Assembly: GCA_005222965.1 (NCBI GenBank)
Contig: NJBG01000001.1
Span: 960,167-1,000,545 of the forward strand
From: Candidatus Woesearchaeota archaeon B3_Woes
GTDB taxonomy: Archaea; Nanobdellota; Nanobdellia; Woesearchaeales; B3-WOES
Direction of reading: 5' to 3'
Length of the DNA: 40,379 nt
Every line of letters begins with the position of its first letter. Position 1 is the stretch's first letter. The notes below the pieces were generated by a model. The model was not told the DNA's origin. It did no database searches and saw only the letters and a program-made list of their open reading frames with translations. A program made the translations under genes and the position numbers. Positions 4,529-25,524 of this stretch are shown here, in pieces.

Positions 4529-6430
4529 TTATTTCTTCTTCTTATCTTTTTCTTCTTCTACTTTGTAATCAGCATCAACTACTTTCTCATCTTTCTTGTC
4601 ATCTTTTCCCTTTTCCTGTTGTTTTGCAGCTTGTTCCTGAGCAACTTTCTGATACATTTCTGTTGACATCTTCTGAACAATCTCATTAACTTCTTCCATT
4701 TTCTTTTTTATTACTGCTGAATCTTTCTTCTCAGGTTTAAGAAGTTCTTTTAATTCCATTATTTTCCCTTTGACTTCTTCTAATTCTTTTTTATCAACTT
4801 TCCCTTCAAAATCCTTAAACATCTTTTCACTAGAAAATACCAAAGCATCTGCCTGATTAATTACTTCAACTTCTTCTTTTCTTTTCTTGTCTTCTTCTGC
4901 ATGCTCTTCTGCATCTTTCTTCATCTTTTCAATATCTTCATCATTTAGTTTTTGTGATGCTGTAATTTGGATTTTTTGTTCTTTTCCAGTTCCCATATCT
5001 TTTGCAGATACATGTATAATTCCATTTGCATCAATATCAAATGTAACCTCTATTTGAGGTATACCTCTTGGTGCAGGTGGAATTCCTACTAAATCAAATC
5101 TACCCAAGCTTTTATTATCTGCAGCCATCGGACGCTCCCCTTGTAAAACATTTATAGTTACTGCTGGCTGATTATCTGCAGCTGTTGAAAATGTCTGGCT
5201 TTTTTTAGATGGAATAGTTGTATTCCTTGCAATAAGTTCTGTTCTAACTCCTCCTAAAGTTTCAATACCTAAAGTTAGAGGTGTAACATCTAATAATAAG
5301 ATATCTTTAACCTCTCCTGCTAGTATTCCTGCCTGGATTGCTGCTCCATTAGCAACACACTCCATAGGATCTACTCCTCTTTCAGCCTTTTTTCCAACAA
5401 AATCTTCTACAAATTTCTTTACAATAGGCATTCTTGTAGGACCACCAACTAAGATTATCTTGTCTATATCACTTGAACTTAATTTAGAATCTTTCAAAGC
5501 TTGTTCTAAAGGATGTTTGCATTTTTCAACAAGATCTCCAACTAAATTTTCTAATTTAGCTCTTGAAATTTTCATTGTTAAATGTTTAGGTGTTCCATCC
5601 TTCTCAGCAACAAAAGGCAGATTAATATCTGTTTCAGTTGTATTTGACAATTCAATTTTTGCTTTTTCAGCAGCCTCTCTAATACGCTGCATAGCAGTTG
5701 GATCATCACCTACATCAATACCTTCTTTTTTCTTGAATTCTTCTATAATATGATTCATTAAGGTATTATCCATATCTGTTCCACCTAATTGTGTATCTCC
5801 TGAAGTAGATTTAACCTCAAATACACCATCTCCAAACTCCATTACTGTAACATCTAATGTTCCGCCACCAAAATCAAAAACTAATATTTTAATTTCTTTT
5901 TCTGACTTATCTAATCCATAAGCCATAGAAGCAGAAGTAGGTTCATTTACTAGTCTAACAACATCTAATCCAGCAATTGTTCCTGCATCTTTTGTTGCCT
6001 GTCTTTGATCATCATCAAAATAAGCAGGTACAGTAATAACTGCCTTTTTTATTGGCTCCCCAACAAATTCTTCTGCATCTTTCTTTATCTTTTGTAAAAG
6101 AAAAGCAGATATTTGCTGAGGTGTATACTCTTTATCATTAATCTTGTATTTATGTTTTGTACCAATCTTTCTTTTTGCAGCAGTTATTGTTCTTTCAGGA
6201 TTAGAAACAGCCTGTCTTCTTGCAGGTTCTCCAACCAACTTCTGATTGTCTTCAGTAAAAGCCACAACAGACGGAAATGCTTTTCCATACTGTGTTATTC
6301 CTTCTGCAGATGGAATTATTGTAGGTTTCCCTGCTTGCAAAATAGCTGCAGCAGAATTACTTGTCCCTAAATCAATTCCAATTATCTTCTCTTTTTTTGT
6401 AGATTTTTCTTTTTTATCATCATTTGTCAT
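4529..6430 (-). CDS. dnaK: Chaperone DnaK (Hsp70)
   Basis: A complete Hsp70 of 633 aa. The nucleotide-binding domain opens with [14 protein letters not shown] (phosphate 1 loop), contains [13 protein letters not shown] (phosphate 2) and [10 protein letters not shown] (adenosine loop); the linker is [15 protein letters not shown], followed by the beta-sandwich substrate domain and helical lid. The tail is lysine/glutamate-rich and ends in EEEKDKKKK rather than a eukaryotic EEVD. DnaK binds unfolded segments in an ATP cycle driven by DnaJ and GrpE, both in this operon. Its ATG overlaps the upstream small gene by 11 nt, so it is translationally coupled to it. Confidence 0.98.
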
Positions 6431-18951: not shown

Positions 18952-19006
18952 TCTAATATAACATATAGCACAAAACCCATTTAAATATTTTTCTAAAAAG
19001 AAAGCT

Positions 19007-19063
19007 CCACGGCCCAGACTAGATACTTTTTGTACCCCTAAGATGGCGCCAATTAAAAAATAC
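19007..19063. repeat. Repeat A, partly matching the tRNA-Ser 3' end
   Basis: It begins with CCACGGCCCAG, identical to the 3' acceptor/T-stem end of the tRNA-Ser gene at 22.9 kb, then runs into GATACTTTTTGTACCCCTAA and ATGGCGCCAATTAAAAAA. About 50 of its roughly 57 positions match repeat B at 20408 in the same orientation. The pair brackets the antiporter gene. Confidence 0.8.
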
Positions 19064-19074
19064 ACTTTTTAAAT

Positions 19075-20304
19075 TTAAGCATTTTCTTCTTTTATTTCTG
19101 GATTTCTTGGTACAATAAATCTTGAATAAATAAAACTAAAAATCATTGCAAGAATATTTGTGCTCAAAACCAATAAAAGAACTATTTCTGTTAGTGAAGG
19201 AATCACAATTTGCTCTTTTAATGGAATAAATGCTAATACAGTTGCAATAAACCCCCGAGGTATCATTGTAACTATTATGAATGAATAGGGTTTAAGTGTT
19301 TTATCTATCTTTACTACTATATTTAGACTAATTAATCTTACAAAGATTATTATCAATAAAACAATTCCTACAATCACCAAGATCAAATTAGTGATATTTT
19401 TTAAATTAAATATTGCACCAATCAAGACAAAAAAGAAAACTCTCACTAAGAATGAAATATCTTCCTGAACAGACCTTATAGATTTGATTATCTTTTTTGC
19501 AGGATCATAAACAACCTCTTTTGGGCCAATAAATTTTTTATGGATAGCAGGATAGTTTCCAATAAGTAAGCTAAATACAAGAACAGCTATTAAACCCTCA
19601 CCATTTAAAAGCTCTGTCAAGCCGTATAACAAGAATAATGCTCCAACTGAAGAGATATAATTAAGTCTTGGTAATTCGATCTTTTTGAGTATATTAATCC
19701 AAATGTATCCTATAATAAATCCTAAAACAACCGCAATAGAGATACTCGAAAAGATTGATTTCAAAATATGCCCCCCTACAAGCTGTTTGTTTATTAACAG
19801 AATAACACTAACACCAAAGATTATTGTAAAATCATTGATTACTGTTTCAAGAAAGATGAGATGTTTTGTATTATAACTTACATTTAATTTATTTATTAGT
19901 GTCATTGCAGTGACTGTTGTAGTTCCACTAGCAATCACACCCAAAAGAAGAGCATGTAAAAGTTGCCAATTAAAAAATGAATAAAGTATAAAACCAATAA
20001 AAAAAGTGCTTAATACACCTATCATAATTGTAAATAAAAAGGACCTACCCAATCTTTTAAGAACCTTAAAAACATTAAAGTTTAAACCACAATCAAGCAA
20101 AACAATCATTAATGCTAGGATAGAAACAAAAGGAACTATTGGTAATAGAACATCTACCTTTATGAACCCAAACACCGGCCCAATCAAAAGACCTATAACA
20201 ATCAAGAATATTGATTCGGGTACCTTTGTTTTTTGATAGGATATCCTACCAAGATAACCTATGATAATTATCAAACCTATAGTAATGAATATGTTTTGAA
20301 TCAT
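19075..20304 (-). CDS. Cation:proton antiporter (CPA1/NhaP-like)
   Basis: The 409-aa protein has about 12 hydrophobic segments. The ion-binding region FLETVINDFTIIFGV carries the Asn-Asp pair typical of electroneutral CPA1 Na+/H+ exchangers, and the unwound-helix segment GVIASGTTTVTAMTLI and the late TMIPRGFIATVLAF also fit. There is no cytoplasmic TrkA-N or CBS domain. It would exchange sodium or potassium against protons across the cell membrane. It stands alone between the direct repeats A and B, so it looks like a one-gene cassette. The codon use is more A/T-rich than that of the housekeeping genes nearby. Confidence 0.9.
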   Translation of the reverse strand: MIQNIFITIGLIIIIGYLGRISYQKTKVPESIFLIVIGLLIGPVFGFIKVDVLLPIVPFVSILALMIVLLDCGLNFNVFKVLKRLGRSFLFTIMIGVLSTFFIGFILYSFFNWQLLHALLLGVIASGTTTVTAMTLINKLNVSYNTKHLIFLETVINDFTIIFGVSVILLINKQLVGGHILKSIFSSISIAVVLGFIIGYIWINILKKIELPRLNYISSVGALFLLYGLTELLNGEGLIAVLVFSLLIGNYPAIHKKFIGPKEVVYDPAKKIIKSIRSVQEDISFLVRVFFFVLIGAIFNLKNITNLILVIVGIVLLIIIFVRLISLNIVVKIDKTLKPYSFIIVTMIPRGFIATVLAFIPLKEQIVIPSLTEIVLLLVLSTNILAMIFSFIYSRFIVPRNPEIKEENA

Positions 20305-20359
20305 TTATTTTATCTACTGCTAATCTTATATAAATATATTTCTATTAAGAAAAAATCAG

Positions 20360-20464
20360 AATTTATAAATCTTTCTATTTTGTTACTACCACTTAGTAAA
20401 GAATACGCCACGGTCCAGCTAAGATACTTTTTGTACCCCTAAAATGGCGTCAATTAAAAAAGAA
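20360..20464. repeat. Repeat B, hybrid of repeat A and the tRNA-Ser flank
   Basis: The left part (20360-20418) matches 22854-22911 at the tRNA-Ser locus: a TATA-bearing flank, TTAGTAAAGAATACG and the tRNA 3' end with one change (CCACGGTCCAG). The right part (20408-20464) matches repeat A. It thus joins both sequences, as expected for a recombination junction. Confidence 0.8.
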
Positions 20465-20477
20465 AAAGGGTTTGGCT

Positions 20478-21599
20478 TTAACGTGTTCGTTGAAGTACAT
20501 TCATAACAACATCATTATCTACATGAGTTGCATATGTACCATTAAATTCATGCATTTGACCAATAGAAATTGGAAGAACATATCTTGCTTTACCATCTTT
20601 TGCTTTCTTATCTCTTGAAGTTACATCGATTATATTTTCATTGGAGATTCCATTTGGAATAGTTATAGGTAAACCAACTGCCACCAATAATGCTTCTTGG
20701 GCTTGCAAATCTTTTTGAGAAAAATAACCCAATCGGTTTGCTATTCTTCCAGCAACCATCATACCTATTGCAACGGCTTCACCATGCGATAATTCAAAAT
20801 TGCTCAATTTTTCCACAGCATGACCAACAGTATGTCCATAATTAAGTATTTTTCTTAATCCCTTTTCATGCGGATCAACTTCAACTACATTTCCTTTTAT
20901 GCCACAATTATTTTTAGCTATATACAATGAAGATTCTGAAGATCTCTCAAGAACCAAACCAACATTTTCTTGTAAATAGTTAAAGAACTCTGCATCTTGA
21001 ATTACACCATGTTTTATAGTTTCTGCTAAGCCATTCCTATAATCTTCTTCAGAAAGTGTTTTTAATGTTGCAACATCAATGTAAACTCGTTCAGGTTGCT
21101 TGAATGCACCAACTAAATTTTTTCCATATTCAGTATCAACAGCAGTTTTTCCTCCAATTGACGAATCTGCTTGAGCAAGAACAGTAGTTGGAATTTGAAT
21201 ATATGGGATGCCTCTGTTAAATATTGTTGCCATAAACCCCGCCATATCTCCAACAACTCCACCCCCAAGTGCAAGAATTGCAGAGTCTCTCCCGTACGTA
21301 TGATGAGACATTTCACCCATCATTGTCATGCAAGAATCTATTGTTTTATTTTGTTCTCCTGCTTCAAAAGAAAATATTTGAGTTTCAATTCCTTCACTCC
21401 TTAAAGCATCTTCTAAGGATTCTTCATATAATTCTCTAACATTTGAATCTGTAACTATAGCGTATCTAGAACCAATAGGTTTATCTTTTAAATCCGATGC
21501 TATTTGAGGAAATAATTCATTTCCAAAAACAAGGTTATAGGACTCATCTATTTCCCTTTTCAGATTTATTCTCATTACATTATCTTTTGATTCAACCAT
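20478..21599 (-). CDS. aroB: 3-dehydroquinate synthase-like protein
   Basis: The 373-aa protein has the DHQS sequence marks in order: the NAD-binding GGGVVGDMAGFMA, the IPTTVLAQADSSIGGKTAVD block with the catalytic lysine, GKNLVGAFKQP, AETIKHGVI, LRKILNYGHTVGHAVE with the zinc histidine, and LSHGEAVAIGM. The family converts DAHP to 3-dehydroquinate in the shikimate pathway; relatives make cyclitols (2-epi-5-epi-valiolone, 2-deoxy-scyllo-inosose). No other shikimate gene is in the window. The ATG at 21599 is chosen because the twelve codons upstream of it contain the TATA box ATTTATAAATATAC. A bacterial origin is plausible, as many archaea use a different early shikimate route. Confidence 0.88.
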   Translation of the reverse strand: MVESKDNVMRINLKREIDESYNLVFGNELFPQIASDLKDKPIGSRYAIVTDSNVRELYEESLEDALRSEGIETQIFSFEAGEQNKTIDSCMTMMGEMSHHTYGRDSAILALGGGVVGDMAGFMATIFNRGIPYIQIPTTVLAQADSSIGGKTAVDTEYGKNLVGAFKQPERVYIDVATLKTLSEEDYRNGLAETIKHGVIQDAEFFNYLQENVGLVLERSSESSLYIAKNNCGIKGNVVEVDPHEKGLRKILNYGHTVGHAVEKLSNFELSHGEAVAIGMMVAGRIANRLGYFSQKDLQAQEALLVAVGLPITIPNGISNENIIDVTSRDKKAKDGKARYVLPISIGQMHEFNGTYATHVDNDVVMNVLQRTR

Positions 21600-21641
21600 G
21601 CTCTTGGCATTCTTAGTATATTTATAAATCTTCACAAATCC

Positions 21642-22331
21642 TTATTCTTTACCCAGATTAACAGGGTGGTATAGACTAATGTGAGTATTTCCTGGCTCAG
21701 AAGTTATTCCTAATGGGGCTTGAAGATATTTTGAAGCAAGTGTTGCAAAATACAATCCAAAACCAGTTCCCCCTTGACGAGACCTTAAAGTTACTCCAAA
21801 CTCAAGAAAATCTTTTAATGGTTTGTCTTTTGGGAAACCTTCTCCTGTATCATGTACATCAAATTTCATAAAATAACCTCCTTGTTTTGCACCCTTTGGA
21901 ATAAAAACTGGATTTTTAATAATACCACCAAGATGCTCACTAATTGTAAGAGTAACAGTACCTTCTTCTCGTCCTATAGCATTAAATCCATTCTTAGCCA
22001 GATTATAAAGTGCAGAATATAAAATACACGCGTCTCCAACTAATGTTTTTTCATTTGTATTAATATTAACAGATAAATCTTTTTTATCAGCCTTAAAAAC
22101 TCCTTGCATGGTCTCTAAGTGATTATTAATTCCTAATATGTTGTAATGACAATCCTGTTGTGTTAACTGAGATATGGCCATTATTACACGTCCAACATGA
22201 GAATTTCTATAGTGGGCAAAATCTTCCTCTCCTTGAAGAAGAGTCATGCCGTGTTGACTCATGATATCGTGCCCAATTAGTCCTGTTACTGATACTTTCT
22301 CTTCCAAAGTTAATGGGTTTTCTACGTTCAT
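21642..22331 (-). CDS. Lone histidine-kinase-like HATPase protein
   Basis: The 229-aa protein has an N-terminal helical part with a histidine-containing LIGHDIMSQ that resembles an H-box, followed by an ATP-binding domain with N box (LYNLAKNGFNA), G1 (VHDTGEGFP) and G2 (GGTGFGLYFA). No sensor, membrane or receiver domain is present, and no response regulator is adjacent. It may be a soluble kinase, or an ATP-dependent switch that has lost phosphotransfer. It is transcribed with its own TATA-like element at about 22362-22370. Confidence 0.8.
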   Translation of the reverse strand: MNVENPLTLEEKVSVTGLIGHDIMSQHGMTLLQGEEDFAHYRNSHVGRVIMAISQLTQQDCHYNILGINNHLETMQGVFKADKKDLSVNINTNEKTLVGDACILYSALYNLAKNGFNAIGREEGTVTLTISEHLGGIIKNPVFIPKGAKQGGYFMKFDVHDTGEGFPKDKPLKDFLEFGVTLRSRQGGTGFGLYFATLASKYLQAPLGITSEPGNTHISLYHPVNLGKE

Positions 22332-22367
22332 TTTAGACTTTAACTCATCATAGTAGAAGTTGGTTTT

Positions 22368-22823
22368 TTAAATACCAGTTAACATATTTGCAATCCTAAC
22401 CACTTCAGTATAATGAACTTGCATTAGTTCTTTACCAATAACTTGTTCAGGATCATAAATATGTGCTTGAAGCACTTCTTCAGTGCCTACGACTTGTAAA
22501 TTTTGTACAAAATTCAATTTGTCCTGTTCAGATAAATTAGCTGTATCTGGTCCTGCGTATTTACCTTTTTTTTCAAATAAAATAAACTGACCGTTTTGAG
22601 GCTTAAAATCTAAGCTTTCTATATCAGGATCAACTTGATATAGTTTATTATTTATAGGATCATATCCATCACCATCTTCTCCACACATAAATAAACCAAG
22701 GAATCTTCTACTAAAAACATGTGCTTTCTCACCTTGCATTTGTCCAAGAATAAACCGAGTAGCTTCATCCTGACTTTCGGAAAGTTTACCTTGATAAGTT
22801 TCAATTATATCTGATAAATCCAT
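22368..22823 (-). CDS. Unknown 151-aa protein
   Basis: I do not recognise it. The protein is soluble and acidic, with a helical N-terminus (SDIIETYQGKLSESQDEATRF), a central segment FLGLFMCGEDGDGYDPIN and a helical end. The ATG at 22823 is chosen because CCGAAAG + ATTTATAAAT (22855-22871, minus strand) makes a strong BRE/TATA promoter ending about 30 nt upstream; this promoter is part of the sequence duplicated in repeat B. Confidence 0.6.
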   Translation of the reverse strand: MDLSDIIETYQGKLSESQDEATRFILGQMQGEKAHVFSRRFLGLFMCGEDGDGYDPINNKLYQVDPDIESLDFKPQNGQFILFEKKGKYAGPDTANLSEQDKLNFVQNLQVVGTEEVLQAHIYDPEQVIGKELMQVHYTEVVRIANMLTGI

Positions 22824-22898
22824 ATAAATCACTGATTTACTGGAATTTATACTAATTTATAAATCTTTCGGTTCGTAACTACTATTTAGTAAAGAATA

Positions 22899-22981
22899 CG
22901 CCACGGCCCAGATTTGAACTGGGATATCCAGAGGAAACAAGATTTCCAATCTTGCGCAGTACCAAGTTGTGCCACCGTGGC
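22899..22981 (-). tRNA. trnS: tRNA-Ser (GGA anticodon)
   Basis: Read on the minus strand, the acceptor arms GCCACGG and CCGTGGC pair over 7 bp, the anticodon stem CAAGA/TCTTG encloses the loop TTGGAAA with anticodon GGA, a long variable arm follows and the T stem CCCAG/CTGGG encloses TTCAAAT. The discriminator is G, as required for serine; CCA is not encoded. No intron is seen. A TATA-like CTTTTATAAATAG lies upstream at about 23004-23016. Its 3' end is the sequence repeated at 19.0 and 20.4 kb. Confidence 0.95.
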
Positions 22982-24240: not shown

Positions 24241-25524
24241 TTATTTCTTCTTAACTAAGTCAATACACATTCCAGCAGCAACAGTTGCTCCAGAATCTCT
24301 GATAGCAAATCTTGAGAGCTGTGGAATCTCTTTTTGTTTCTCAATGCACATTGGCTGTACAGGCTTTATTTTTATAATTGCCGCATCTCCATTCTTGATG
24401 AAATCTGGGTTTTCTTGTAGAGTTTCACCAGTCTTTGGATTCAATTTCTTCTCAATAGCCATTATTTGACAAGCCACTTGAGCAGTATGAATATGGAATA
24501 CTGGTGTATATCCTACTGTCATAACAGTTGGATGATTTAATACAACTATCTGAGCAGTAAACTCTGAAGCCAATGTAGGTGGATTGTCAACAGGACCTAA
24601 AACATCTCCTCTTGCAATATCTTTCTTACCAATTCCCCTAACACTAAATCCAACATTATCTCCTGGTTGTGCTTCCTGCATTTGTTCATGGTGCATCTCA
24701 ATTGTTTTAACTTCTCCTTGTACACCTTTTCCTTCTCTTCCAGGAACTACAATTACTTTCTGTCCTACTTTCATAACTCCTGTTTCAACTCTTCCAACAG
24801 GAACAACACCAATACCAGTTATACTATAGACATCCTGGATAGGTAGTCTTAAAGGTAAATTAGTTGGTTTTTCAGGTACAGTTAATGTATCTAATGTTTT
24901 AAGTAATGTTTCTCCAGAATACCATGACATGTTTTCTGATTTTTTAACAACATTATCTCCTACTAAAGAAGCAATAGGAACAAAAGTTATTTTGCTTGGA
25001 TCATATCCAACACTTTGTAACAATTTTTCAACTTCCCCTTTAACTTCATTAAATCTTTTCTCATCATATTTGACCATATCCATCTTATTAACAGCTACAA
25101 TTATTTGATTAACACCTAATGTTTTAGCTAAGAAGATATGTTCTTTTGTCTGAGCCATAACTCCGTCGTTAGCAGCCACTACAACAACACCAGCATCTGC
25201 TTGTGCAGCACCAGTAATCATATTTTTAATAAAATCTTTATGTCCAGGTGCGTCAATTATTGTAAAATAATATTTAGGAGTCTCAAATTTTTTATGAGCT
25301 AAGTCAATTGTAACTCCCCTTTCTCTCTCTTCCTTTAGATTATCCATAACAAAAGCAAATTCAAAACCACCCTTTCCTAACTCCTCTGCTTTCTCTTTTA
25401 ATTTCCTCATAGTCTGTTCGTCAATATTTCCAGAATCAAATAATAACCTGCCCACACTAGTTGATTTACCATGATCTACATGACCTACAAATACTAAATT
25501 CATATGTTCTTTTTTCTCTGCCAT
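24241..25524 (-). CDS. tuf: Elongation factor 1-alpha
   Basis: The 427-aa GTPase delivers aminoacyl-tRNA to the ribosome. It has GHVDHGKS at residues 14-21 (P loop), DAPGHKDF (G3) and VNKMDMV (G4), followed by the two beta-barrel domains and the EF-1A-specific [13 protein letters not shown]. It has a strong Shine-Dalgarno site (GGAGGG) and a promoter with CGAAAC + CTTTATAAATAC at 25582-25598 facing away from the rRNA promoter. Confidence 0.97.

Follow-up and report, generated by a model that had tools for sequence, protein, structure and literature searches.

Two tandem cargo-carrying units behind a tRNA-Ser(GGA) gene of a woesearchaeal genome, probable members of a class of small insertions at tRNA 3' ends

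Tycheposons are tRNA-anchored elements, some of which carry cargo and have no recombinase; on general background, they are set apart from the insertions described here as bacterial and far larger. Tyrosine-integrase elements that target tRNA genes, such as archaeal proviruses, pNOB8-type plasmids and ICEs, insert at the tRNA 3' end with an intact tRNA upstream and a partial 3' copy downstream, the former being the classical target and the latter the classical mark of such integration (PMC9897764, PMC8371274). Integrons, including archaeal integrons and CALINs, line up gene units in tandem at a fixed platform, with a foldable site closing each unit (PMC9668308), and the archaeal integron paper makes no mention of tRNA. 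Family 2 casposons prefer tRNA genes; the casposase of A. boonei duplicates 14-15 bp of its target, the tRNA-Pro 3' end, and its recognition sequence TCAAATC lies 8 bp upstream of this stretch (PMC6614799). In the DPANN archaeon Nanoarchaeum equitans, small structured RNAs with a k-turn-type motif lie directly behind tRNAs as tRNA-sRNA dicistrons and mobile C/D sRNAs, and the part of that report available to us mentions no tRNA-end copy and describes no protein cargo (PMC3491384). In Caldiarchaeum, a tRNA fragment and intron gain are tied to a 1.8 kb inserted element, yet there the fragment is the 5' one, a recombinase is encoded, and hairpin units and arrays are lacking (PMC3293823).

We analysed a window of 40,379 nt from Candidatus Woesearchaeota archaeon B3_Woes. 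Its sole tRNA gene, tRNA-Ser(GGA), is followed on the minus strand by a promoter, a 154-aa ORF, a HATPase gene, aroB, hairpin B with copy B, a second promoter, an antiporter gene, and hairpin A with copy A. The features, in window coordinates, are as follows.

24241..25524, minus strand: EF1A, the synteny anchor upstream of tRNA-Ser, outside the inserts
22899..22981, minus strand: tRNA-Ser(GGA), host gene of the inserts (ARAGORN, Rfam)
22854..22898, minus strand: left end of unit 1, TATTCTTTACTAA then the promoter motif (TAGTAGTTACG...GAAAGATTTATAAATT); repeated at 20360-20404, the promoter motif being genome-wide
22368..22832, minus strand: ORF of 154 aa without a family, unit 1 cargo; one weak relative in 145 genomes
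21642..22331, minus strand: HATPase_c protein of 229 aa, unit 1 cargo (Pfam); one 35% relative among 145 genomes
20478..21635, minus strand: AroB, 3-dehydroquinate synthase, unit 1 cargo (TIGR01357, 357 bits, cut-off 305)
20405..20450, minus strand: hairpin B, which closes unit 1, its 3' strand being the tRNA-end copy; RNA fold -17.1 kcal/mol, z -2.2; covariation with A
20405..20418, minus strand: tRNA-Ser 3'-end copy B (CTGGACCGTGGCGT)
20360..20404, minus strand: left end of unit 2, ATTCTTTACTAA then the antiporter promoter; repeated at 22854-22898
19075..20304, minus strand: Na+/H+ exchanger-family antiporter of 409 aa, unit 2 cargo (PF00999); best relative 62%, in genome G012
19004..19049, minus strand: hairpin A, which closes unit 2; fold -15.4 kcal/mol, z -0.9 alone; structure like B, two compensatory changes
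19004..19017, minus strand: tRNA-Ser 3'-end copy A (CTGGGCCGTGGAGC), slightly decayed

Units 1 and 2 have both their left and their right ends in common. The two insertions proposed in an earlier note on this DNA are borne out as two tandem inserts of about 2.5 and 1.4 kb, and the region, like an integrase-type tRNA island, is bounded by an intact tRNA on one side and a partial copy on the other. We consider it probable that both units, each with its cargo, were inserted one behind the other at the tRNA-Ser(GGA) 3' end and that they are members of a class of small insertions found in this archaeal order downstream of tRNA genes with many different isotypes. Unlike tRNA-targeted integrase elements, the window inserts lack an integrase, and the units of the class are usually 40-130 nt long, in some cases form tandem hairpin arrays and have a copy that follows the present host. 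Unlike in integrons, the anchor is a tRNA gene, the hairpin carries the tRNA end, and no IntI scores over the cut-off.

The three repeats from which the earlier note started are real and lie where it placed them, as confirmed by alignment and a whole-genome search. Repeat A (18997-19060) and the right part of B (20398-20461) are 86% identical over 64 nt, the left part of B (20379-20418) matches the tRNA-Ser 3' end and flank (22872-22911) at 88% over 40 nt, and an exact 16-nt match (20360-20375 and 22854-22869) forms a further part of the left-arm repeat. All three have in common CCACGG(C/T)CCAG, the 3' end of the acceptor and T-stem, and the alignments support the proposal that the tRNA-Ser 3' end is the source of the copies. 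Across the whole 1.02-Mb genome, the best matches to B beyond itself are repeat A and the tRNA-Ser flank (E 1.5e-15 and 4.2e-13), followed by a long tail of lower-ranked matches mostly limited to its left part. Most of the left arm is a promoter-type motif (TTTATAAATCTTTC...TTACTA...TAGTAA) that has dozens of genome-wide matches, many just upstream of ORF starts. Many left-arm matches share TAGTAGTAACAAA...AGAAAGATTTATAAAT, an archaeal promoter arrangement present in the window at 20360-20390 and 22854-22890; it was also seen once directly behind another tRNA (L005). The noted match of the left part of B to the tRNA-Ser end and flank stands, but most of the left arm is a widespread motif, and its locus-specific portion consists of the 14-nt tRNA-end copy and the next ~14 nt (GTATTCTTTACTAA). 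The right arm, which contains GATACTTTTTGTACCCC, has two genome copies only, A and B, and the suggested genome search for further core copies returned none beyond these. Matches to it in 145 relatives were weak and chance-like, and a 20-mer of it was absent from genome_contigs and viral_contigs.

A left arm that is mostly a genome-wide promoter motif would fit an origin without any mobile unit, in which a segment was duplicated locally or a promoter captured and the promoter motifs converged, and one longer duplication of this kind exists. In that case (L181, G030 C53), a long partial copy and a repeated coding flank lie 1.3 kb downstream of a tRNA-Gln, which looks like segmental duplication and differs from the insert pattern. 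For our locus we regard local duplication as highly improbable, since the right-arm hairpin is common to A and B only, and the order-wide pattern, the host-tracking copies and the empty sites described below all disfavour it.

Hairpins A and B adopt the same fold under RNA parameters, with the tRNA-end copy as the 3' strand, and both gene units of the tandem thus end in a site able to fold, though weakly when DNA parameters are used. Among the nine columns at which the two hairpins differ, two pairs have changed on both sides and still pair, one pair is broken, and four columns are unpaired. This covariation, which comes from two sequences (shuffle control 132/500), is suggestive and no proof. 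The stability of hairpin A alone is no greater than that of shuffles, and the window hairpins lack the k-turn motif found in many of the mini-inserts described below; both count against the explanation we prefer.

The cargo is patchy. The HATPase and the 154-aa ORF are nearly orphans, and the best relatives of the antiporter and AroB reach 62-64% and lie in different genomes, with aroB present in 24/145 relatives, own genome counted. The only genome of the same family (78% complete) has no match to any of the four cargo proteins. No tRNA was found by ARAGORN near the antiporter and aroB homologues in other genomes, which again counts against our preferred explanation. The earlier note called for a synteny comparison, and this comparison showed that, among the named relatives that keep the order from EF1A to tRNA-Ser(GGA), the site is empty in L295, L329 and L333 and holds other inserts elsewhere. 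In L320, where this tRNA-Ser(GGA) again lies downstream of EF1A, the insert carries an MFS transporter gene, and an exact copy of the end plus flank stands at +1516, and L292 has a transglutaminase-like ORF and an apparently decayed copy. Behind a tRNA-Met, L305 carries an ORF of 83 aa and a hairpin whose family is also represented behind the tRNA-Ser of that contig; an end copy extended into the flank follows at +561. Behind the tRNA-Ser(GGA) of L336, a stretch (5076-5110) resembles the end of a different serine tRNA.

The earlier note spoke of a mosaic region; the arrangement belongs to a pattern seen across the order and is no local mosaic. We surveyed 203 tRNAs, identified by ARAGORN in stretches of our own genome and six relatives from the order, and scored as a copy the tRNA's own last 14 nt with at most 2 mismatches. 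In these genomes, which like the others surveyed are mostly draft assemblies, 40/203 tRNAs have a same-strand downstream copy within 350 nt, compared with 0 upstream and 0 on the opposite strand; within 5 kb the numbers are 51 vs 7. In one genome (G119), 14/33 tRNAs are affected. A second, independent set drew on 80 named records, almost exclusively from Woesearchaeota or Nanoarchaeota; the 58 tRNAs near their EF1A genes had 11 downstream copies vs 0 same-strand upstream and 2 opposite. A tRNA-like gene on a GC-rich contig (L281 10600-10861, reverse strand) has two downstream end copies, at +58 and +116. We found no published description of the insertion class in the open-licence literature, which omits most subscription papers, and the pattern of tRNA, insert and copied tRNA end apparently represents an undescribed class of small mobile insertions.

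The distance from the tRNA end to the copy is mostly 40-130 nt, and most such inserts are non-coding, while some carry a gene. Copies are mostly 11-30 nt long; most of them reach the tRNA 3' end or stop close to it, and 22/48 begin at T-loop position 57/58. The insert boundaries vary, unlike those left by a transposase with a fixed duplication, and this counts against the preferred explanation. Inserts fold more strongly than control trailers without a copy (median z -1.58 vs -0.54, p 1e-5), and a tandem-GA/k-turn hairpin, often with the three-base bulge of a k-turn, occurs in 18/50 inserts, 6/159 controls and 3.9% of shuffles. Arrays recur: L028 has three units, with 54-nt hairpin repeats and differing 41-43 nt spacers, L305 two identical 99-bp units, L348 139-bp units, and G098 two 76-bp units. 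Sequence inspection of the inserts revealed no apparent terminal inverted repeats, and a search of the window and of two insert regions from our own genome against Rfam gave, at gathering score, tRNA and rRNA as the sole families.

In 20/56 inserts vs 9 expected (p 5e-5), the hairpin 5' strand is complementary, with a match of at least 6, to the end of the insert's own host tRNA. Pairing between this strand and the host copy was rejected as a general feature, as it holds for part of the inserts only. This excess, the covarying window hairpins and the tandem architecture of promoter, gene, hairpin and copy would suit integron-like cassettes, in which hairpin and tRNA-end copy together act as an attC-like site whose single strand folds to recreate the tRNA end as a duplex, the tRNA being attI-like and a host recombinase such as XerA acting on both. 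More than half of the inserts are without host-specific complementarity, the window hairpins fold weakly as DNA, and a canonical attI x attC exchange would hand the proximal tRNA the cassette's end, which misfits hopping between tRNAs. With these points and the recombinase evidence below, we judge integron-like cassettes unlikely.

Homologous inserts are found behind different tRNAs, both within one genome and between genomes. Across 22 such pairs, copy and own host agree at 12.9/14 positions, copy and sibling's host at 5.3/14, match rates that are biased upward, with decayed cases undercounted, as inserts were mostly discovered via a close copy; three of these inserts, found by interior similarity (G119 at 75138 and 763773, G030 C22:20486), match their own host at 11/14. 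As judged from these alignments, the copy was probably made at insertion, because homologous inserts carry the end of their present host. Three comparisons from two genera show an insert behind one of two orthologous tRNAs whose flanks are conserved: G098 C10:2199 vs G135 C31:64588, G098 C14:12638 vs G135 C18:9488, and G140 C10:37194 vs G037 C35:19774, the last with an empty site where the same two tRNAs are adjacent. A tRNA gene of G119 (L219 6480-6790) contains, as an intron-like stretch, a clear reverse-orientation relative of the k-turn insert. In our own genome, a tRNA gene with the acceptor GAGCCCA/TGGGCTC (L136, G000 C1:929640-929960) appears interrupted near the T-loop by a stretch that resembles the k-turn insert in reverse orientation, a borderline match (E 0.01). 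These reverse k-turn-like stretches hint that tRNA genes themselves, not their ends alone, may be targets.

The enrichment of k-turn-like motifs and the extra folding raise the question of a function at the RNA level, with the inserts being structured RNAs processed from tRNA transcripts, their k-turn hairpins bound by L7Ae and their tRNA-like 3' ends formed by tRNase Z cleavage, while selection on the RNA would keep the copy. The dicistrons and mobile C/D sRNAs known from Nanoarchaeum also speak for it (PMC3491384). Such a function leaves the host-following copy and the protein-gene units unexplained, the RNA motif would be lost in the opposite-orientation relative inside the G119 tRNA gene, and two inserts of our own genome match no Rfam family at gathering score; we find it unlikely.

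The earlier note explained the copies by att-like integration at the tRNA 3' end. The inserts do lie at the tRNA 3' end, but classical att sites alone leave the host-tracking copies and the tandem hairpin arrays unexplained. In a full version of this explanation, tyrosine-integrase islands would arise by attP x attB exchange at tRNA 3' ends, and loss of the integrase and most of the element would leave attL/attR-like scars. Beyond the classical target and mark, it gains from the many copies that begin in the T-loop, a dyad-symmetric region suited to such enzymes, and from the two tyrosine recombinases of the genome. However, attP must match each host end, yet homologous inserts behind different tRNAs bear host-specific ends, and compact structured units of 40-130 nt and tandem arrays recur, unlike random deletion remnants. 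We thus rate remnant integrase islands as rather unlikely.

The statement that no integrase is present holds inside the window inserts, where no cargo ORF has an integrase family match. The genome's two tyrosine recombinases (PF00589) lie far from the locus, at C1:103 kb and 856 kb; one is an XerA over the cut-off, which also resembles IntI4, and the other a short protein of 217 aa. The XerA lends some weight to integron-like cassettes, and neither recombinase scores as an IntI over the cut-off (TIGR02249, 165 bits vs cut-off 265, matched in two pieces), which weighs against them. Casposons make a duplication of similar length, but the copies seen here begin in the T-loop and vary in length, and the inserts have no apparent terminal inverted repeats. 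Cas1 (PF01867) is absent from our own genome and occurs in 5/145 relatives only, and Cas1/casposase was rejected as the resident enzyme on this ground. A tRNA-primed retro-element was rejected by reasoning, as the copy lacks CCA and is on the wrong side.

We therefore prefer a putative trans-acting enzyme together with host-end duplication, because Cas1 is absent and the casposase segment starts elsewhere, and because attP x attB exchange needs a matching end in every insert; insertion of this kind is, on balance, the probable explanation, with integron-like hairpin recombination and a function at the RNA level as serious alternatives. That no mobilising enzyme could be tied to the inserts counts against it. 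A candidate trans-acting recombinase or transposase would insert a unit at the T-loop/acceptor part of a tRNA gene, leaving an intact tRNA upstream and the duplicated host end (positions ~58-73) downstream. That host sequence would be duplicated at insertion is suggested by the copy following the present host. Tandem arrays may then be built by repeated insertion or unequal crossing-over. More tentatively, it is possible that Woesearchaeota-type archaea have an integron-like system that uses tRNA genes as its landing sites and in which a trans-acting recombinase adds hairpin-ended units, empty or gene-loaded, and duplicates the host end, with arrays that differ between close relatives.

If this explanation is true, about one-fifth of the tRNA genes sampled from a large group of uncultured archaea would be marked by a small mobile element. 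Standard searches would overlook such an element, since it lacks an integrase and evident inverted repeats and, in many cases, a gene as well. Thanks to the host-tracking copy, insertion events can be tested for in genomes that are already available. For archaea with small genomes, such insertion would provide site-specific gene gain at many equivalent sites.
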